From: Chthoniobacteraceae bacterium
Lineage (GTDB): Bacteria; Verrucomicrobiota; Verrucomicrobiia; Chthoniobacterales; Chthoniobacteraceae
DNA length: 64,000 bases
Assembly (NCBI GenBank): GCA_947449735.1
Contig: CANFTB010000012.1
Coordinates: 33,072-97,071, forward strand
Direction: 5' to 3'
The number at the start of each line of letters is the position of its first letter. Within the stretch, counting starts at the first letter, position 1. Under the pieces are notes generated by a model, which did not search any database, was not told the origin of the DNA, and saw only the letters and a program-made list of their open reading frames with translations. This document shows, one piece after another, positions 2 to 11,962 of the stretch. The translations under genes were made by a program, and so were the position numbers.

Positions 2-1375
2 CTGGACGGCATGTTCAAGGCCACCGGCCACAAGAACGCCTACTTTCCGCTCTTCATCCCCCTCTCCTACCTGGCCAAGGAAGCCGAACACGTGGACGGT
101 TTTGCCAAGGAATGCGCCGTCGTCACCCACCACCGCCTCGAAACGGGACCGGACGGCAATCTGCGCCCCGCCCCGAGTTCGCAGTTGGCGGAGCCGCTCG
201 TCATCCGCCCCACCAGCGAGACCATCATCGGCGCAACCTACGCCAAATGGGTGCAGAGCTACCGCGACCTCCCCATTCTCATCAACCAGTGGGCGAACGT
301 CGTGCGCTGGGAAATGCGGCCCCGCGTGTTTTTGAGAACCGCTGAGTTCCTGTGGCAGGAAGGCCACACGGCCCACGAGACGGAGGCAGAGGCGGTGGAA
401 GAAACGGAGAAAATGCTGGGCGTCTACGAGACGTTCGCACGCGAGCACCTCGCGCTGCCCGTCTACACCGGCGAGAAGAGCGCCGGCGAACGCTTCCCCG
501 GCGCCGTGCAAACTCTTTGTATCGAGGCCATGGTGCAGGACCGCAAGGCAGTGCAAGCCGGCACCTCGCATTTCCTCGGCCAGAACTTCGCCAAGGCCAG
601 CGACATCAAGTTCCTCTCCCGCACCAACACCCAGGAGTTCGCCTGGACGACGAGCTGGGGCGTGAGCACGCGCCTCATCGGCACGCTCATCATGGCCCAC
701 GGCGACGACGACGGCGTCATCCTGCCCCCGCGCGTAGCCACCTCGCACATCGTGATCCTGCCCGTGGTCCCGAAGGAAGACACACGCGCCGCCGTTTTGG
801 ACGCCGCCTACGCACTCGCCGCCAAGCTGCGCGAAGTTCGCTACCACGGCGAACCGCTGCGCGTCGAAGTCGACGCCCGCGATCTCAACGGCGGAGCCAA
901 GAACTGGGAATGGATCAAGAAGGGCGCCCCACTGCGCGTCGAAATCGGACCGCGCGATCTGGAAAAAGGCTCCGTTGCGGTGGCCCGCCGCGACCGTCCG
1001 CACAAGGAAAAGAGCTTCCCCTCCAACACCGAGTTTCTGGAAACCGTGCCGTCCATCCTGGACGACATCCAAGCGACGCTGCTCGCACGCGCCACGGAAT
1101 ACCGCGACCAGAACACCGTGCGCATCGACACCAAGGAGGAGTTCTACGCCTTCTTCACCCCGAAGAGCGCCGACAAACCCGAGATTCACGGCGGCTTCGC
1201 CCTCGCCCATTGGAACGGCTCGGCGGAGGTCGAGGCTAAGATCAAGGAGGACTTGAAGGTCACCATCAGGTGTATCCCCACCCCAGGCCAGATTCCCGGC
1301 GCCGAAGAACCCGGCCGCTGTGTCATCACGGGCGAACCCAGCGCGCGCCGCGTGCTCTTCGCCAAGTCATACTAA
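2..1375 (+). CDS. proS: Prolyl-tRNA synthetase, archaeal/eukaryotic-like (type 3) form; 5' end cut by window edge
   Basis: Frame is open to the window edge (LDG-MFKATGHKNAYFPLFIP). Class II motifs VIRPTSETIIGATYAKWVQSYRDLPILINQWANVVRWE and FLWQEGHTAH; C-terminus ends ...LFAKSY. Confidence 0.95.
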   Translation: MDGMFKATGHKNAYFPLFIPLSYLAKEAEHVDGFAKECAVVTHHRLETGPDGNLRPAPSSQLAEPLVIRPTSETIIGATYAKWVQSYRDLPILINQWANVVRWEMRPRVFLRTAEFLWQEGHTAHETEAEAVEETEKMLGVYETFAREHLALPVYTGEKSAGERFPGAVQTLCIEAMVQDRKAVQAGTSHFLGQNFAKASDIKFLSRTNTQEFAWTTSWGVSTRLIGTLIMAHGDDDGVILPPRVATSHIVILPVVPKEDTRAAVLDAAYALAAKLREVRYHGEPLRVEVDARDLNGGAKNWEWIKKGAPLRVEIGPRDLEKGSVAVARRDRPHKEKSFPSNTEFLETVPSILDDIQATLLARATEYRDQNTVRIDTKEEFYAFFTPKSADKPEIHGGFALAHWNGSAEVEAKIKEDLKVTIRCIPTPGQIPGAEEPGRCVITGEPSARRVLFAKSY

Positions 1376-1466
1376 ACCGCCCTGCCGCCGGACCGACCCG
1401 ACTCGTTTTCTGTTTCGGGCGAACGCCGGCGCACTCCCCCCTTCCCTCCGCTATTCCCCACCAATC

Positions 1467-2585
1467 ATGAGCGCCTTTTCCGTCGAACACACCGACCCCG
1501 TGAACTCCCAGATCCTCGCGATCTCGGAGGACAAGATCCAGGGCTTCGTCCGCGAACCGTTTGCCGAAGTCGCCCGCCTCTCCGGCGTGGACCTCGACAC
1601 CGTCCATGCGCGCATTCGCGGGATGCTCGAGGCCGGAACGATCCGCCGCGTCCGCCAGACCCTGATCGCCCCCAACCTCGCCGACGGGGCGCTCGTCGCG
1701 TGGCGTGTTTCCGAAGACAAGCTCAACAGCGCCTTCGACTTCATGTTCCAGCAGGACCCGTTCAGCGGGCACGTCGTCGTGCGGTCCACCGACCAGCAGA
1801 CGCCCGGCTCCGAGTACCGCCTCTGGACAACGCTCAAGGTGCCGGTCGGCACCTCAATGGACGAGCACGCCCGGGTTTTGATGCGCCACACGGGCTGCGA
1901 AAAGTACAAACTCATGCCGGCGCGCGGGATTTTCGCGCTCGGCGTCGGGCACGTCCGCCGCAAGACCATCGAGCCCGGCGACCGCATTGAAAAGCCTGCG
2001 CAGATGATGCCCGTCCACAACGTGAAGCTCACCGACCTGGAATGGCGGGCGCTTCTGGAATTGAAGCGTGAGTTTGAACCTTCAGAGATCGCCGCCAACC
2101 CCTGGGCGCCCCGCGCCGCGGCGGCAGGAGTGTCGCTGGACGAATTTTTCCAAATCGCCGAAAGCCTGCAGTCGCGCAAGGTCATCGGCCGCTTCTCGAC
2201 CTTCCTCGAACACGTGAAACCCTCGCAGACCGGGGTGCGCGTGACGCGCTTCAACGCCCTCTTCCACTGGGCCGTCCCCGCGGGACGCGAAGTGGAGGCC
2301 GGCGGCGAAGTCGGCCGCCACGAGATCCTCACGCACTGCTACTGGCGCGAAGGAGGCCCCGACTTCAAAAACGTGAACATCATGTCCGTCGCCCACGGCA
2401 CCGACAAGGGCCGGGTGCTCGAGCACAAGGCGGCCATCGACGCGCACCTCGAAAGCTGCGGAATCCCGGTCGCCTACACGAACGTGTTCTGGGGTGGACG
2501 CAGTGAAATCAAGCCCTCGGAAATCTCGCCGCTCATCCACCGCGAATGGCTCGCCCGCATGCAGGCCGCCGCGCCCCAGGCCTGA
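1467..2585 (+). CDS. Lrp/AsnC-like two-domain protein resembling AhbA/AhbB (siroheme decarboxylase family)
   Basis: ATG at 1467. N-terminal winged-HTH-like segment followed by RAM-like segments, then a second HTH/RAM-like half. Confidence 0.6.
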   Translation: MSAFSVEHTDPVNSQILAISEDKIQGFVREPFAEVARLSGVDLDTVHARIRGMLEAGTIRRVRQTLIAPNLADGALVAWRVSEDKLNSAFDFMFQQDPFSGHVVVRSTDQQTPGSEYRLWTTLKVPVGTSMDEHARVLMRHTGCEKYKLMPARGIFALGVGHVRRKTIEPGDRIEKPAQMMPVHNVKLTDLEWRALLELKREFEPSEIAANPWAPRAAAAGVSLDEFFQIAESLQSRKVIGRFSTFLEHVKPSQTGVRVTRFNALFHWAVPAGREVEAGGEVGRHEILTHCYWREGGPDFKNVNIMSVAHGTDKGRVLEHKAAIDAHLESCGIPVAYTNVFWGGRSEIKPSEISPLIHREWLARMQAAAPQA

Positions 2586-3447: not shown

Positions 3448-3524
3448 AACAGATATTCCTTTGAACTAAACGCTGTATCGTTAGGTCTGAACACGTGCGG
3501 TGTTTTACCTCACCGCGTTTCTCA

Positions 3525-4532
3525 ATGCACCGTCTCCGCTTCCATTCTCAGGCGCTCAGCCCGGTGCTTTCAGCACTTCCGCCTGTTTTAGAAACACCTC
3601 ATGAAATCCCGTCGTCTCAAGAAAGGGACGCCCGACTGCTGCGCGGTGCCCTTCTCAAGGAGGCTCCCCTTCACCGCGGTCTGGAGTTTAGTTTGGGAAA
3701 GGTCCTCTCGGCAGCCGTCACCAATACAGGGTCGCTTTTAAGGGCGCAAATAGCGCTGGTTTTGGGACGGGCACTCGGGGAAACCGAGCCGCAGGCGCTG
3801 AAGTTTGCCTGCGCAGTCGAGTACTTCCACATCGCCTCTCTGCTTTTGGACGACCTGCCCCAAATGGACGACGCCCGGGAAAGGCGGGGACAGGTGTGCC
3901 TCCACTTGTTGCACGGTGAAAACGCCGTCCTCCTGGGGGCGCTGGCGCTGATCACACGAGGATACGCGCTGGTGGGCGAGTCCGGAGCGGGCGCTTCCGA
4001 GAAGTCGAGGAACGCCTTGAACGGCCTTTTGGAGAGCTGCCTTGGAACACGGGGAGTCCTCAACGGACAGGCGTTCGACCTCAAATTTAGCGACACCCTC
4101 GCGCCGAAGCGGAGTTCCGCCACCGTTGCCCTGCGAAAAACCGTGCCACTCCTCCTGCTCTCGCTGCTGGGCCCGGCGCTGATCGCCGGGGCGTCCGAAG
4201 AGCAGTTCATGGGACTGAGACGGTTGGGAATTTACTGGGGCCTCGCCTATCAGGGACTCGATGACCTGCGGGATGTGCTGGAAAATCCTCACACCAGCGG
4301 AAAAACCTCTGAGCAGGACACCTTGCTCGGGCGTCCCAGCATGGTGCGACAACTGGGCGTGGAGGGATCTCAACGCTCACTTGCAAGACTGATGGAGCTT
4401 GCGAATCAATCGCTGGCGAAGCTCGTCTCGGACACCCCGGCGCTGGGGGTGCTTTCTGATTTCCAAGGGCTGTTCAAGGAGAGAGTCCAGCGGCTGGTTC
4501 CCTGCGTTTCACAATCATGCCCGCCTTCCTAA
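3525..4532 (+). CDS. Polyprenyl (isoprenyl) diphosphate synthase family protein
   Basis: Asp-rich motifs LLLDDLPQMDDARERRG and YQGLDDLRD. Start uncertain (GTG 3495 or ATG 3525). Confidence 0.8.
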   Translation: MHRLRFHSQALSPVLSALPPVLETPHEIPSSQERDARLLRGALLKEAPLHRGLEFSLGKVLSAAVTNTGSLLRAQIALVLGRALGETEPQALKFACAVEYFHIASLLLDDLPQMDDARERRGQVCLHLLHGENAVLLGALALITRGYALVGESGAGASEKSRNALNGLLESCLGTRGVLNGQAFDLKFSDTLAPKRSSATVALRKTVPLLLLSLLGPALIAGASEEQFMGLRRLGIYWGLAYQGLDDLRDVLENPHTSGKTSEQDTLLGRPSMVRQLGVEGSQRSLARLMELANQSLAKLVSDTPALGVLSDFQGLFKERVQRLVPCVSQSCPPS

Positions 4533-5632
4533 GCCTCATTTTATTGAATCTGAGGCGGCACAAGATCCGGGCCGCCATCAGCGTCACCGGCGTGGCCTTC
4601 GGCGTTGCCGCCATGCTGATGATTGTCTCAATCGTGCTCGGGGCCATCAGCATGTTTGAGGGCATTCTGGCCGAGGAGAGCCATTTCGTTGTCTTCGAAA
4701 AGAACGTGTCCGACCTGTTCTTCAGCAGCGTCAGCATGGAGCAGATTGAGACGATCCGCGGTCTCGTACAGGTGGACCGGGTGGATCCGATGCTGGTAGG
4801 AATTGTTTCCTCGGCGGACCACCCGATCATCACCTGTTTTGGAGTCGAGGCGGACAATCCGCGCCTTCAAAAGGCCCAGTGGCTTCAGGGCGACCGCTCT
4901 GAATATGGGAGGGAGCCGGATGTCGTGTACCTCGGGGAGAGGTCGGCGCAGTTTCTGAAGACCAAGCGTGGCGAAAGGATTTCCATCGGAAAGGCGGAAT
5001 TCACCGTCGGCGGGGTGATCCGGACGCAGAACGGCTTTGAGGATGGAGGCGTTTTCATGCCCCTGTCTCTGGCCCAGCGCTATTTCCACCGCGAGGGTCT
5101 GGTGTCCGTCGCCTCGGTGAAACTCAAGAACGCCCAGATGTCGGAGGCCTTCAAACACTCCGTCGAAACCGCTTCCGGCGCCCTCGTAGCTCTTAAAAAC
5201 GAGGATTTCAACAGATCCTATTCCCAGTTTCGGATCCTGAACTTCACCAGCTGGGCGGTGGGCGTGTGTTCATTGCTACTGGGCGGCATGGGCGTGGCGA
5301 ACACGATGCTGATGTCGATTTTCTCGCGCATCCGTGAAATGGCGATCTTGCGCGTCTGCGGCTTTTCCCGCGGCCAGATCGTGGGTTTGGTGTTTGGGGA
5401 AGCTGGCATTCTCGCCGCCATTGGGTCCGTCGTCGGACTGGGGATGGGGTTCGCGGGCCTGGCCGTGATGAACCGGGTGCCGCAGTTGCAGGGGTACGTT
5501 CATGCGCAGGTGCGCCCGGACGTGATTCTCGCCATCCTGCTGACAGCCTGTGTCACCGCTCTTTTGGGCGCGCTTTACCCCGCGCATTTCGCTTCCCGGA
5601 TCCAGCCAGCGGAAGCCCTCCGCTTCGAATAA
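4517..5632 (+). CDS. ABC transporter permease, MacB/FtsX type
   Basis: N-terminal TM, large soluble domain, three C-terminal TMs with FSRIREMAILRVCGFSRGQI. Overlaps the preceding ORF by 16 nt. Confidence 0.85.
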   Translation: MPAFLSLILLNLRRHKIRAAISVTGVAFGVAAMLMIVSIVLGAISMFEGILAEESHFVVFEKNVSDLFFSSVSMEQIETIRGLVQVDRVDPMLVGIVSSADHPIITCFGVEADNPRLQKAQWLQGDRSEYGREPDVVYLGERSAQFLKTKRGERISIGKAEFTVGGVIRTQNGFEDGGVFMPLSLAQRYFHREGLVSVASVKLKNAQMSEAFKHSVETASGALVALKNEDFNRSYSQFRILNFTSWAVGVCSLLLGGMGVANTMLMSIFSRIREMAILRVCGFSRGQIVGLVFGEAGILAAIGSVVGLGMGFAGLAVMNRVPQLQGYVHAQVRPDVILAILLTACVTALLGALYPAHFASRIQPAEALRFE

Positions 5633-5635
5633 ACC

Positions 5636-6328
5636 ATGGAATCCCCAGACCAAGACAACACGACGCCGGTCGTCCTTGAGGGCAGAGACCTTTGGAAAAG
5701 CTTCGACCAGGGGCGCATTGAGGTGCTTCGCGGTGCCAGTGTGAAGGTCCGGCGCGGGGAAATCGTGGCCCTCTGGGGGGCATCCGGGTCGGGAAAAAGC
5801 ACCCTCCTGCATCTGTTGAGCGGGCTGGATGTCGCGGACAAAGGCACCGTCTCAGTCCTTGGACAAAACCCCCAGTTTGAAGAAGCCAGGCTGGCTCTGA
5901 GGCGGCGGCACGTGGGGTTCGTATTCCAGCTCCACAACCTGATTCCGGACCTGACTCTTGAGGAGAACCTTCAAATTCCCTGCATCGCCAGCGGAACGGC
6001 CGGCTCCCAAATCCGCAGTCGGATTCTTCAGTTGAGCGACGCGGTGGGGCTTTCGCACAGGCTGCGGCACAGGATCCAGGACCTCTCGGGAGGCGAGCGT
6101 CAGCGGACCGCGATTTGCCGCGCGCTGATGCACGAACCCCAGATTTTGTTCGCGGACGAACCGACGGGCTCCCTGGACGAAAAGACCGCTGAAACCGTGT
6201 TCGAATTGCTCTTCAAACTCGCGAAAAACGAGGGAATGACCGTGGTGATCGCCACTCACGAGCGCCGGTTCATGGAGGCGTGCTCGCGCGTGGTGCGCGT
6301 CACCAATGGCCAGACGCTTTCGAGTTAA
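5636..6328 (+). CDS. ABC transporter ATP-binding protein, LolD/MacB type
   Basis: Walker A GASGSGKSTLL, signature LSGGERQRTAICRAL, Walker B ILFADEPTGSLDEKT. Confidence 0.95.
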   Translation: MESPDQDNTTPVVLEGRDLWKSFDQGRIEVLRGASVKVRRGEIVALWGASGSGKSTLLHLLSGLDVADKGTVSVLGQNPQFEEARLALRRRHVGFVFQLHNLIPDLTLEENLQIPCIASGTAGSQIRSRILQLSDAVGLSHRLRHRIQDLSGGERQRTAICRALMHEPQILFADEPTGSLDEKTAETVFELLFKLAKNEGMTVVIATHERRFMEACSRVVRVTNGQTLSS

Positions 6329-6348: not shown

Positions 6349-7728
6349 ATGCAGGATCCTTTTCAGCGGCAGCCTTCGAACATCGGAAGTGCCGCGTCGG
6401 GAGAAGGCGGGGAAGCGGGTGAAGCACAGCGTCTCGCAGGTGTTTTCAGCATCCTCTGGCTGCTCCTGGCGAACGCGGTGGGGGTGTTGCTGGCAACGCT
6501 GCTGGTGCTGCCTGAATTAGGACGCCCGCTCGGCGAGTTTACCTACGGCCGCTGGGTGCCGTTGCACTTGAACTGGCAGCTTTACGGCTGGTGCGCCCTG
6601 CCGGCGGTTGCGGCGCTGATGCGACGCTTCGCACCGGCCGAATCTTCCGAAGCCACCAACCGCTCGGGCAAAAGCGGCCGCTGGGTGGTGTATTTCCTCT
6701 GGTCGGCGGCCCTGCTCTATGGCGGTTGGAGCTGGCTGCACGGTCAAACGACGGGGAAACTTTTTTTGGACTGGAACGGCCGCTCGGAAGCGCTGCTGCT
6801 CCTGGCGATGGTGGTGCTCTGGTGGGTGCTTTTGAGCCAGTGGCGCAGCCAGGATCGTTCCAAGGCCGAGGCGCCCCCCCGCTCCGCAGGTCTTTCGCGC
6901 GTTTTGGAAGCCGTTCTTCTGGCGGCCCTCGCGGCCGTTCCGGTGCTCTTAAGTTGGTCCGGGGGACGCGGCGTTTATCCGCCCATTGACCCAGGCACGG
7001 GCGGCCCCACGGGGACCAGTTTGCTAGGCTCCACTCTGGTGGTCGTTCTGCTTTTCGCCCTGATTCCCTGGCTCCTCCGGGTGCCTGCACGGCGCGACAG
7101 GGGTGTCTGGCTTCCGTACTGGCTCGTGCTGGGCGCTTCGATGTTGCTGTGCTGGGCCATTTCAAACGGCAACAGCAGCCACTCGGACTGGAGGCAGATC
7201 TCGGGGCTAGGTTCGCTGCTTTTTTGGATCCCCATGCTTCCCCTCTATTGGCGTCGATTTGACTGGGGCCCGGGCTCCACCCGTTGGCTGCGCGCCACGC
7301 AGGTTTGGTGGGCGGCATTGGTTCTCACAGGCTTTGTGGCGTTCCTGCCCGGAATGCTGGACAGGATCAAATTCGGGAATGTTCTGGTGGCGCACACGCA
7401 CCTCGCCATGGCGGGTTTTCTCACGAGCCTAAACATGCTCATCCTCATGAATCTCTCCCGTTCGCCGCTCCAATGCGTCGGCGTTTTGGACGCGCGAGTT
7501 CCCTTTTATGTGTGGCACGCGGCGTTGGCCGCTCATTTGTGCAGCCTCGCCGGCCTGGGGATCGTGGAAATACAGGACAAAGGCCGCTGGTTGATGGGGG
7601 AGGCTGGGGCCGCGTTCCTGTGGATCCGTTTGGGCGCGGGCGTCCTGATGGTAGGCGTGTCGGTGTTCTGGCTCGTAGCGCTTCTTTCGGGACGTCGGAA
7701 ACCTCAACTAACAGAGAACGCTCCATGA
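6349..7728 (+). CDS. Polytopic membrane protein related to cbb3-type heme-copper oxidase subunit I
   Basis: ATG 6349. TYGRWVPLHLNWQLYGW resembles the CcoN low-spin heme His region; NVLVAHTHLAMAGF resembles the paired heme His region. Many TM segments. Confidence 0.6.
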   Translation: MQDPFQRQPSNIGSAASGEGGEAGEAQRLAGVFSILWLLLANAVGVLLATLLVLPELGRPLGEFTYGRWVPLHLNWQLYGWCALPAVAALMRRFAPAESSEATNRSGKSGRWVVYFLWSAALLYGGWSWLHGQTTGKLFLDWNGRSEALLLLAMVVLWWVLLSQWRSQDRSKAEAPPRSAGLSRVLEAVLLAALAAVPVLLSWSGGRGVYPPIDPGTGGPTGTSLLGSTLVVVLLFALIPWLLRVPARRDRGVWLPYWLVLGASMLLCWAISNGNSSHSDWRQISGLGSLLFWIPMLPLYWRRFDWGPGSTRWLRATQVWWAALVLTGFVAFLPGMLDRIKFGNVLVAHTHLAMAGFLTSLNMLILMNLSRSPLQCVGVLDARVPFYVWHAALAAHLCSLAGLGIVEIQDKGRWLMGEAGAAFLWIRLGAGVLMVGVSVFWLVALLSGRRKPQLTENAP

Positions 7729-8126
7729 AAACACGCCTTGTGACCGCGGTTTCGTTGATGGCAGGAGGCGGGGACTTCGCCACAGGCCTGTTGCTCCTTA
7801 ATCAACCGGCGTGGACGCTTGGACTGCTCGGCGTTCCGATTCCCGGGGATTTGGTTTTGGTGCAATACATCGGAGTCTTCGTGGGCTGCGTCGGCTTGAT
7901 CTACGGATGGGGACTCTGGACGTATTTGCACCAGGGAGACCCTGCGCGGTTGAGGACGGTTTGGGAGATGACGGCTCTTTTCCGGTTCTCCGTTTGCGCG
8001 TTTGTGGGTGTGAGTGTTCTACAGACGAAACTGCACCCCGCCTGGCTTTCCGTGGCATTGGTGGATGGTTTCTGGGCCCTTTTACAAGTGGCACTGCTCA
8101 GGCGCAGGGCTCTGGATCCCCAATGA
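7725..8126 (+). CDS. Small membrane protein of unknown function
   Basis: ATGA overlap with the preceding stop (7725-7728); about four hydrophobic segments. Confidence 0.7.
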   Translation: MKTRLVTAVSLMAGGGDFATGLLLLNQPAWTLGLLGVPIPGDLVLVQYIGVFVGCVGLIYGWGLWTYLHQGDPARLRTVWEMTALFRFSVCAFVGVSVLQTKLHPAWLSVALVDGFWALLQVALLRRRALDPQ

Positions 8127-10117
8127 AACCGCCTCCTCAAAACGACCCACCTTTCGGAGCAGAGCCAGGCGCCCGGGAAACGCTGGCCGCCGTTGTGGCG
8201 ATCGCGACGTCCTATGTCTTCTTTCTGATATTCGCGCAGTTTGCCTTCGTTAAAATCCTCCAAAACTCGGGTTTTGAAGCGGCCACAACCCGCTTGGCCA
8301 TGGCTTTCATGGGTGTTGGCGGAGTGGTTTCAAGCTTGGTGTCCGGACGACGCTTCTCCGCAAACCCGCACGGATTGCGGCGCGGTCTGATCGTTGGATT
8401 CGGAAGCTGTGCCTTGACCGCGGCCGGTGCTCTTTTCCTGAGCTCTCCCGCCGCGCTCTGCACCTTGAGCGCGCTTGTGGGCGTTTCCCTCGGAATTTTG
8501 ACCGTCCATCTGGCAGGAGGCATGCGCCAACTACTCCCGACACGTCGCCGCGGCTTTTGGGTCGGGGCCGGGACTGGCGCGGGCTACTTCGTTTGCAACA
8601 TTCCGTCTCTTTTCGCCGGCTCGACGACGATCCAGACGGTTGCGGCCATCGGTTGCTGCGTTCTAGGCGTGCTGGCCTCTTTCTCCATCGCGGCCCCGCC
8701 CCACCCTGCGAAGTTCTTCGAGTCGGGCGGCAAAGACGATGCCTTCGCTAGCCTGGTGGTCATGTTTCTGGCGCTCGTCTGGCTGGACTCAGCGGCATTT
8801 TACATCATCCAGGCCACTCCAGCGCTCAACCGTTTCGGGTGGGGAAATGTCAGCCTAGAGTGGCAGAACGCCTTCATCCATCTGGTCGCAGCTCTCGTCA
8901 GCGGCCTGCTGCTAGACCTCGGACTCTTGCGCTGGATCCTGTGCGGCGCATTCGGATGCTTCGCCCTAGCCGCCATGTGCCTGACCGGAAAAGTGGGCGG
9001 CATGTGGTTGACGCACTGGTTCTATGCCACGGGGGTGTCTCTGTACTCGACCGCGCTCGTGCTCGCACCCTCCGCCATGGGGCGGTGCAAGCAGTTGGAA
9101 GGGTCGGCTGGCGCGGGAATGGATCCAGTGGAGTCTTCCGTGAAAGTGGCATCTCGGGCCGCAAAACTGTATGCCGTTGCGGGATGGCTCGGTTCGGCTC
9201 TAGGCATCGGCATGGCGCAGGATTTGCACCAAATCCCGGGCTGGTTCGTGCTCATTTCCGGCGCCGCCGTTCTTGGGTGCGCTGTCTATCCGTATATCAG
9301 GCGCACCGCACGCGCTTCGCGCCATGCACGTCTGGGGGTCTTTGCGGGCCTCCTGCTCCCAGGATGCGTCCTCTTTGCAAAGCCAGCCGAAGCCCTCGCT
9401 AACCCCGTTCAAAATTTTGAGGCGGATGCCAAAAACGGCCGGGAGGTTTACATTTCGGAGGGCTGCATGTCCTGCCACTCCCAGTTTGTGAGGAAAGGAA
9501 CTCAGGACGAGCAATGGTGGGGCCCCTGGCAGGATCCAAAAATCATTCTGGCCACGAGGCCGCCGCTCATTGGCAACCGGCGCAACGGCCCAGACCTTCT
9601 CAACATCGGAAACCGCCGTTCCATGGATTGGAACCGCATGCATCTCATCGAACCACGCGATCTCTCCCCCGCTTCCCGCATGCCTTCCTACAGGCACCTC
9701 TTTGTTCCCGGAGATCCTCGCGGGCCGGCTTTATTGGAATATCTCGCCCTGCTGGGTACGGATTCCTTCGAAGAACGCAACCAGACGATCGCTCATTGGC
9801 GGATTGCGCCGGAGGCCAAACCCGTGGCTCCTGACCTCCGGGCGGTTCTCTACCAGCGCCATTGCGCCCAATGCCACGGGACGGAAGGACGTGGGGATGG
9901 ACGACTCGCACCTCAACTCACGCACTCCAATCCGCCCCGGAATCTGGCTGCGGGCGAGTGGTTGTTCTACGCCCGGCAAACCGCTGATCCCAGCCAAGAA
10001 CTCGCCCGAACCATCAAGTTTGGAATCCCCGGCACCTCCATGCCCGGACACGAACTCCTCACCGACTCCGAGCTACTCGGACTGGCTGCACACGTCCAAT
10101 CGCTGAAGCAGCCCTGA
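8123..10117 (+). CDS. Fusion protein: N-terminal MFS-like polytopic domain, CcoO/FixO-like cytochrome domain, second c-type cytochrome domain
   Basis: ATGA overlap at 8123-8126. About 12 hydrophobic segments, then GREVYISEGCMSCHSQFVR...GNRRNGPDLLNIGNRRSMDWNRMHLIEPRDLSPASRMPSY, then LYQRHCAQCHGTEGRGDG. Confidence 0.8.
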   Translation: MKPPPQNDPPFGAEPGARETLAAVVAIATSYVFFLIFAQFAFVKILQNSGFEAATTRLAMAFMGVGGVVSSLVSGRRFSANPHGLRRGLIVGFGSCALTAAGALFLSSPAALCTLSALVGVSLGILTVHLAGGMRQLLPTRRRGFWVGAGTGAGYFVCNIPSLFAGSTTIQTVAAIGCCVLGVLASFSIAAPPHPAKFFESGGKDDAFASLVVMFLALVWLDSAAFYIIQATPALNRFGWGNVSLEWQNAFIHLVAALVSGLLLDLGLLRWILCGAFGCFALAAMCLTGKVGGMWLTHWFYATGVSLYSTALVLAPSAMGRCKQLEGSAGAGMDPVESSVKVASRAAKLYAVAGWLGSALGIGMAQDLHQIPGWFVLISGAAVLGCAVYPYIRRTARASRHARLGVFAGLLLPGCVLFAKPAEALANPVQNFEADAKNGREVYISEGCMSCHSQFVRKGTQDEQWWGPWQDPKIILATRPPLIGNRRNGPDLLNIGNRRSMDWNRMHLIEPRDLSPASRMPSYRHLFVPGDPRGPALLEYLALLGTDSFEERNQTIAHWRIAPEAKPVAPDLRAVLYQRHCAQCHGTEGRGDGRLAPQLTHSNPPRNLAAGEWLFYARQTADPSQELARTIKFGIPGTSMPGHELLTDSELLGLAAHVQSLKQP

Positions 10118-10138: not shown

Positions 10139-11203
10139 CTAGCCTAAGAGCGTCTCGCCGACGCGGAGCGTTACAAACGTATCCCCTCCAACCCCGGCGG
10201 CCTTCTTCGCCAATTCGAGCATTTGCGGTGCCTCATGAAGCGGATCATCCGCCAACAGGAAGGTTCCCCAGTGCATCGCCACGGAGCGCTTTGACTTGAG
10301 CTCGAAATGGACGTTCAACGCCTCCCGGGGATCCAGGTGAACTCCCCTCATCAGCAGGCGCGGCCGATAAGCGCCTATGGGAATCAACGCCAAATCCACC
10401 GGGCCGAACCGCTCCCCGAGCTCGGCCAAAAACGGGGCATAACCCGTGTCGCCCAGAAATACCACCTTCCGCCCCATGCATTCCAGCAACCAACCGCACC
10501 ACAAAGTCTGATCGCGGTCGAACGGGGTTCGGGCGGAACCATGCTGCGCCGGCAAACAGGTGATCCGCACAGGCGCCGTACCCCGCCCGAAAGTGGATCC
10601 AGCAGAGTCCCCCAAGACAACAGATTCCCCCCAGTTGAAATCCAAAGATCGCCGGATCCTCCAAGCATTCAATATCGCGCCCACGCCGCTCGGACAAAAA
10701 AATATAGGTGTATCGTGGGCCCCACTCCGATGCGGCTTTGAAAGAGCTTCAACGCTTCCCCTGTCGAGATGGTCGTAGTGGCTGTGGCTCAGGAGAACGC
10801 CGTCAATCGGTGGAAGTTCTTCGGTTCGGATTCCCGCCGTCACGCGCCTCCGCATGGAACCGAGCGGCACCGGTGCACAGTACGCGCCAAAGTGGGGATC
10901 GGTTAAAAAGCAAAGGCCCGCAATTTGAATCAGGAAGGTGGAATGCCCGATCCACGTCACGGCGAGCGCATCGGGTGGGACCGCAGCAATCGCATCCCAA
11001 TCCGGAGGAACCTGCTCCGGACCCGACTGACTGCGGTCCAAGGAAGGATCCTCTAGCGGCGCGGGCACCTCGGAAGGCAGCACCCCGAGCTTCCAACGCA
11101 GGACATCCTTTAACCTGGGAGACGTGACGCCCGAGAGATTCACGAACCGCCCGCCCAAACGGCGGGACTGCCACGGAAAATCGGGTGTCGACGATAAATC
11201 CAA
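10139..11203 (-). CDS. MBL-fold metallohydrolase, NAPE-PLD/UlaG-like
   Basis: TWIGHSTFLIQIAG, TDPHFG, LLSHSHYDHLD, LPAQHGSAR, AMHWGTF motifs. Confidence 0.85.
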   Translation of the reverse strand: MDLSSTPDFPWQSRRLGGRFVNLSGVTSPRLKDVLRWKLGVLPSEVPAPLEDPSLDRSQSGPEQVPPDWDAIAAVPPDALAVTWIGHSTFLIQIAGLCFLTDPHFGAYCAPVPLGSMRRRVTAGIRTEELPPIDGVLLSHSHYDHLDRGSVEALSKPHRSGAHDTPIFFCPSGVGAILNAWRIRRSLDFNWGESVVLGDSAGSTFGRGTAPVRITCLPAQHGSARTPFDRDQTLWCGWLLECMGRKVVFLGDTGYAPFLAELGERFGPVDLALIPIGAYRPRLLMRGVHLDPREALNVHFELKSKRSVAMHWGTFLLADDPLHEAPQMLELAKKAAGVGGDTFVTLRVGETLLG

Positions 11204-11207
11204 AAGC

Positions 11208-11831
11208 CTATTTCAGAGAAAGGTCCTGAGGCAGGCTGAAACTGAAGCGGTACTCCCCCTTCACGTCAGTGGCCACCGTAATCACCGCCAGACGGATCTG
11301 GGGCAGCCCGAACTTCAGAGTGTTGATGACCGTCTGTCCCGTCACAATCAGATGGTTTTTCTCGCGCCAACCGGCGGCCTCTTCCGAAATCGGCTGGTCC
11401 ACGCCGTTCATGCTGAGCACTCCGCTCACGCGGAATGTCGCTGGAGCGGCTGCCGTGGCCGTCTGATAGTCGCCCGACACGGGAGCCACCTTTTCGAGGC
11501 GGAAAATAATCTCGGGATGCGTGTCCACATGCATCCACTCCTTCATCTTTCCGTCCCTGTCCTTGTTGAACGTCGTCAGTTCCGCGGTCTTGAAAACGAG
11601 CCGCGCATTCTGAACAAAGGGCTTGGCGTCGGAAGAAACAGCGGCGCTTCCGCTGATGTCCTTCGCCTGACCCTGAAAGCTGTGCATGAAGGATTTTCCG
11701 GTGAACTTGAACGAACTTTCTGCCGTCTCCAGCGGCAGCGTCTTCGCTGCCCGGGCGGGAGTTCCTAGAAACAGCGCTCCCGCAAAAAGGAGGCAAGGGG
11801 CGTAACGCAAAACGGCTGTGTCACGAGTCAT
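11208..11831 (-). CDS. YceI family periplasmic protein
   Basis: Signal peptide plus YceI-like beta-barrel pattern (ESSFKFTGKSFMHSFQGQAKDISGSA...GVLSMNGVDQPI). Confidence 0.8.
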   Translation of the reverse strand: MTRDTAVLRYAPCLLFAGALFLGTPARAAKTLPLETAESSFKFTGKSFMHSFQGQAKDISGSAAVSSDAKPFVQNARLVFKTAELTTFNKDRDGKMKEWMHVDTHPEIIFRLEKVAPVSGDYQTATAAAPATFRVSGVLSMNGVDQPISEEAAGWREKNHLIVTGQTVINTLKFGLPQIRLAVITVATDVKGEYRFSFSLPQDLSLK

Positions 11832-11962
11832 GGTACTTAGTATATCGCAAGTTGATGGGCCTCTCCAAAAAAAAATCACAGGCTCCCCCCTCACCGGACC
11901 CTGCCCGACCGGTTCCAAAAGTGCGTATTTTGAGCCACCGGCCCCTCCTCAATCCACCACGC

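Follow-up and report, generated by a model that had tools for sequence, protein, structure and literature searches.

The window, meaning the whole 64,000-nucleotide stretch of DNA from a Chthoniobacteraceae bacterium that was analysed, contains six genes arranged head to tail, encoding a polyprenyl diphosphate synthase, an ABC permease, an ABC ATPase, a CcoN-like protein, a small membrane protein and a protein in which an MFS domain is fused to two haem-c domains (Table 1). The last three genes are joined by 4-base ATGA overlaps (7725-7728 and 8123-8126). This gene set recurs at related loci, and the operon is conserved over six to seven families; the ABC pair was not found at the locus of G433, a genome that belongs to a different class of the same phylum. 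A promoter and terminator scan gave signals that were not above those of shuffled sequences. Farther upstream, a single ORF at 1320-2585 (+) matches first AhbA-like and then AhbB-like siroheme decarboxylase subunits, both below the cut-off, and no counterpart of this ORF was found at related loci. At the G433 locus, an HpnN/sterol-type RND transporter gene (L091:2435-4480, -) scoring below the HpnN cut-off lies beside the system. Hopanoid lipids were considered as a general substrate and rejected, hopene cyclase being encoded in 4/29 system-positive genomes and 7/22 other genomes.

Table 1. Features of the fusion locus (positions in the window).
Feature	Positions	Strand	Evidence
Polyprenyl (farnesyl/geranylgeranyl-type) diphosphate synthase	3495..4532	+	Both Asp-rich motifs; start codon uncertain; syntenic
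MacB/FtsX-type ABC permease	4517..5632	+	Domain matches; syntenic
LolD/MacB-type ABC ATPase	5636..6328	+	Domain matches; syntenic
CcoN-like gene, 459 aa, 12 helices	6349..7728	+	AlphaFold2, Foldseek, hhalign, ligand alignment
Small membrane protein, 133 aa, unknown family	7725..8126	+	ORF; conserved in 19 other loci
MFS::CcoO-like::cytochrome c fusion gene, 664 aa	8123..10117	+	Single open frame; fused full-length relatives
MFS domain, 12 helices, residues 17-396	8171..9310	+	AlphaFold2 helices; Foldseek MFS matches; column check
Hydrophobic segment read as TM13, residues ~403-420	9329..9382	+	Hydropathy, 22 fused members
CcoO/FixO-type mono-haem c domain, residues 432-527	9416..9703	+	Pfam FixO; M520 in 22/22
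Class I cytochrome c domain, residues 574-662	9842..10108	+	Pfam Cytochrom_C and Cytochrome_CBB3; absent solely in L053
MBL-fold hydrolase (Lactamase_B_2)	10139..11203	-	Pfam; frequent neighbour, 11 loci in 6 families
YceI-family periplasmic protein	11208..11918	-	Pfam YceI; conserved neighbour

Translation of the fusion gene gives a frame without a stop. The initial annotation had described its product as a transporter-like domain followed by a CcoO-like and a class I cytochrome c domain, and this three-part anatomy is borne out by Pfam matches to FixO (residues 432-527, E 1.4e-24) and Cytochrom_C (576-662, E 7e-16) and by the predicted fold of the N-terminal part; the GCMSCH and HCAQCHG motifs and the GPDLLNIGNRRSMDWNRMHL...SRMPSY stretch also lie where that annotation had placed them. 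Three features had gone unmentioned: a 13th hydrophobic stretch that links the MFS and haem parts, the presence upstream of a degenerate CcoN gene, and the conservation of the operon. The Pfam match to MFS_1 is weak (residues 25-312, E 0.0015, under the gathering cut-off), and the transporter part was therefore examined by structure. An AlphaFold2 model based on 22 sequences (mean pLDDT 81.5, pTM 0.69) has 12 membrane helices in this region, for which Foldseek retrieved MFS transporters from the PDB with a probability of 1.00 and E-values down to 7e-7 (6zgs, VMAT2, OxlT, NorA). Nine residues are invariant in 31/31 MFS members, fused or separate: Y155, N159, D222 (TM7), H253 (TM8), Y301, S306, Y308, S309 and W355. 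The invariance of the polar residues among them points to a functional transporter with a conserved substrate, and transport is possibly proton-coupled via D222 and H253. Motif A, the classical MFS motif between TM2 and TM3, was not recognisable in 22 aligned sequences.

The CcoO/FixO-type domain has a CxxCH motif at residues 448-452 (C448/C451/H452), the axial ligand M520 and the CcoO signature, and the class I cytochrome c domain has a CxxCH motif at residues 581-585 (C581/C584/H585) and the distal axial ligand M640. Both motifs and both axial methionines are retained in 21 of the 22 aligned fusions. The fusion is not a full-length CcoO protein: its TIGR00781 score is 81 bits, for a cut-off of 200.65, and covers residues 425-527 only. 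The haem parts are reduced at two loci, with no second haem domain in L053 and a short mono-haem protein in L059, so that the minimal conserved core consists of the CcoN-like protein and one CcoO-type haem. Hydropathy profiles of the fused members show a further hydrophobic segment in 22/22, albeit weakly in a few, which follows the MFS part and precedes the first CxxCH motif; pLDDT is low in this region of the model. We read the segment as TM13; as it follows the usual cytoplasmic C-terminus of an MFS domain, the haem domains would face the periplasm.

Distribution of the fusion and its parts

The window's genome is a fragmented draft of about 90% completeness, in which no second copy of the fusion was found. 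Within its genus, the protein is present in 1 of 12 genomes, and among 36 genomes of its family only one other has it, as a separate MFS gene and di-haem gene (L068). Of 384 genomes sampled across the class, 30 had matches, and many of these matches were full length. Both parts form a single frame at 21 of the 23 fetched loci that have both, or at 23/25 when the window and G433 are included, and single-ORF fusions were found in families f1, f15, f20, f24, f30 and f86. L061 and L068 encode the two parts by separate genes; in L055, L056 and L059 the haem-c protein has no MFS gene in its cluster. A scan of named genomes for the fusion returned one match, to an unrelated cytochrome.

The haem-c part and the CcoN-like gene occur in one cluster at 28/28 loci (the window, 26 relatives from the class and L091). 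Three genomes (G114, G197 and G300) encode an MFS relative with no close CcoN-like gene; the CcoN-like search gave no match in G114, and the weak matches in G197 and G300 fall at canonical CcoN. All these counts are for sampled genomes, some of them drafts, and the CcoN-like profile search covered the window's phylum. In the MFS tree, the window, L068 and the f20 genomes form a group (100/97 support) distinct from all other members. Combined with the protein's scattered occurrence in the genus, this placement suggests that the gene was either transferred horizontally or lost repeatedly. Six stand-alone MFS relatives (L057, L058, L060 and L062-L064) adjoin apparent histidine biosynthesis genes (L062, L063 and L064 included) and form one supported clade within f24.

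The CcoN-like neighbour

Pfam names no family for the product of the gene at the head of the overlapping trio. Its AlphaFold2 model (pLDDT 87, pTM 0.88) has 12 helices, and its best Foldseek match is the cbb3 subunit I CcoN (3mk7; E 7.5e-10, TM-score about 0.65), with NO reductase (NorB) and other oxidases ranking next. Global profile alignment with hhalign showed it to be co-linear over its full length with the canonical CcoN of its own genome (probability 92%, E 1e-7). The protein thus combines a predicted 12-helix haem-copper oxidase fold with retained haem ligands, those of the low-spin haem included: TM2 H73 is present in 23/23 sequences, and the HxH motif of TM10 retains H349 in 23/23 and H351 in 22/23.

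The set of three CuB histidines, one in TM6 and two at TM7, is incomplete. A TM6 histidine is found at the aligned place in 0/23 sequences, this stretch reading GG-[AP]-TG; L061 alone has a histidine in the region, three residues on. In the shortened TM7-8 loop, H278 is a histidine in 21/23 sequences, as part of an HH pair in 13/23, and is replaced by asparagine in L036 (f20) and L061 (f51). Alignment with proteobacterial relatives supports reading the TM7 pair as eroded, with one histidine mostly kept, rather than as wholly lost. In the canonical CcoN and the further oxidase-type subunits included in the alignment, the ligands are intact. A complete CuB site is thus unlikely, given the loss of the TM6 histidine and the erosion of the TM7 pair, and a partial metal site at H278 or the HH pair is possible. 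In the split system of L068 (G031), TM10 reads AHADLAM, an aspartate replacing the low-spin haem histidine, and this copy may be without the low-spin haem.

Other unusual subunits were encountered. A second CcoN-like subunit, encoded elsewhere in the same genome (L070:9571-11016, contig C8) and also represented by L132-L135, retains almost none of the haem and CuB ligands at the corresponding alignment positions and looks like a haem-less scaffold; its relatives display graded ligand loss. Next to its gene lie an aa3-type subunit I gene, a CcoO gene and genes for cytochromes c, and an apparent alternative complex III subunit is encoded upstream. In G142, L127 encodes an oxidase-type subunit I with intact metal ligands and an unusual TM6 (YYMHQGVGM), which is neither a canonical CcoN nor the CcoN-like protein of this system.

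A proposed cytochrome b/c complex and the alternatives

In the reading that we favour, with moderate confidence, the fusion serves as the membrane-anchored electron-transfer subunit, facing the periplasm, of a 'pseudo-cbb3' complex that derives from a cbb3 oxidase and probably does not reduce O2; the CcoN-like protein would be its partner, and the MFS domain would be tethered to the complex. Together the two proteins would make up a cytochrome b/c complex in the membrane, with a cbb3-type oxidase as its ancestor. In it the CcoN-like protein, to judge from its ligands, would keep a low-spin haem b and the proximal histidine of a second haem, with the capacity for O2 reduction lost. Electrons would pass between the haem b of the CcoN-like protein and the two c haems, with a soluble cytochrome as their further acceptor or donor, while the MFS domain, held by TM13, would most likely move a small molecule that the same pathway consumes or produces. 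This reading is supported by the invariable clustering of the haem-c and CcoN-like genes, the ATGA overlaps, the CcoN fold, the pattern of retained ligands, the invariant MFS residues and the conserved operon. Against it stand the frequent retention of H278 and the HH pair, the aspartate of L068, and the separation of the MFS and haem parts, or loss of the former, at five loci. The initial annotation had proposed a redox complex with a substitute membrane scaffold; a redox complex with an altered membrane partner is supported in a different form, in which the MFS part does not take the place of CcoN, since a CcoN-type subunit with a degraded CuB site is still encoded next door.

The redox partner might be an isoprenoid or quinone-like lipid. 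This is suggested by the co-conservation of the prenyl synthase, the YceI protein and a lipid-type exporter; members of the YceI family bind isoprenoid lipids. Both this link, drawn from the neighbouring genes, and the identity of the transported substrate are speculative. We advance only tentatively the fuller scenario of a new class of redox machine in the membranes of this phylum, in which an oxidase scaffold stripped of CuB became a cytochrome b/c complex covalently coupled to an MFS protein, possibly with an isoprenoid carrier made by the operon and exported.

It is possible, though unlikely, that the second haem remains a catalytic site, making the complex a gas-reactive enzyme (acting on NO, O2 or peroxide) with an altered or one-histidine metal site, fed with electrons by the fusion. 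The invariance of the proximal ligand H349, the frequency of H278 and the HH pair and the resemblance of the fold to both cbb3 and NorB subunits are consistent with such an enzyme, but the TM6 histidine is missing from its aligned place throughout, H278 is itself replaced in L036 and L061, and no tie to nosZ was seen. Sec-type nosZ is encoded in just 4/29 system-positive genomes, and N2O respiration was rejected as a candidate role.

That electrons passing through the haem domains drive or gate the MFS domain, as first proposed for this locus, appears rather improbable. Its appeal lies in the retention of a single-ORF fusion in at least six families and in the invariant buried Asp (TM7) and His (TM8), as in proton-coupled MFS transporters; however, either part may be split off or lost, as at the five loci noted above, and some MFS-bearing genomes lack the complex, so the parts can work apart, which speaks against an obligate coupling.

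We find it harder still to see a role for the fusion in assembling cbb3 or some other haem-copper oxidase, perhaps as a CcoA-type copper importer with a redox domain. The cbb3 oxidase depends on CcoA, itself an MFS protein (PMC8406296, PMC5829832), and most system-positive genomes also encode a canonical CcoN. However, the CcoA motifs, MxxxM in TM7 and HxxxM in TM8 (PMC8406296), were each found in 0/22 aligned members, several genomes have CcoN without the system, and six carriers (G031, G113, G129, G146, G272 and G299) have no canonical CcoN above the cut-off, which argues against a role in cbb3 assembly. Copper import for cbb3 was rejected because these motifs are absent and f20 genomes have no canonical CcoN above the cut-off.

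Finally, a frameshift or misassembly near position 9400, which the initial annotation had named as a way in which it could be wrong, or a chance joining of separate genes might be suspected from the fragmented draft and the two relatives with separate genes. These explanations can be dismissed, because the same continuous fusion is present in relatives from f15, f20, f24, f30 and f86, single-contig genomes included.

Haem-copper oxidase subunits I are normally taken to be O2 or NO reductases, owing to their binuclear centre. If the favoured reading is correct, a respiratory oxidase would have become a different redox machine, with a subunit I lacking a CuB ligand and a cytochrome subunit fused to a transporter. 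Gene annotations are likely to call members of the system just 'MFS transporter' or 'cbb3 oxidase subunit II', so microaerobic respiration could be wrongly claimed from their genomes.

Comparison with known systems

Two-domain proteins combining CcoO and cytochrome c are already known, whereas the MFS fusion, the CuB-deficient CcoN-like subunit and the operon are apparently new, no description of them having been found in the open-access literature that was searched. The closest comparison is with the cbb3-type (C-family) oxidases, with which the system shares the CcoO-type haem-c domain, a neighbouring subunit with the CcoN (FixN) fold and the haem histidines. The differences are that the TM6 CuB histidine has been lost here, the CcoO (FixO)-type domain lies C-terminal to a 12-helix MFS domain, there is no separate CcoP and the operon includes additional genes.

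The order of the haem domains, CcoO followed by class I cytochrome c, is that of the bifunctional CcoO/cytochrome c proteins of NCBIfam NF011054, examples of which are encoded next to a cbb3-type subunit I gene on plasmids of Acetobacter and Paraburkholderia. These proteins have no MFS part and align with the fusion only from residue 404 onwards. The plasmid CcoN shares the HxHLAM motif of TM10 with the CcoN-like protein but, unlike the latter, has an intact TM6 histidine and TM7 HH pair.

The MFS part has the same 12-helix fold as 6zgs, NorA, OxlT and VMAT2 (target-normalised TM-score about 0.6-0.75), with 12-18% identity; no specific family can be assigned, and those proteins have no haem domains. 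The CcoA/CalT copper importers are, like the MFS part of the fusion, MFS proteins linked to a cbb3-type system, but in place of their methionine motifs the fusion has an invariant Asp in TM7 and an NxxxH motif in TM8.
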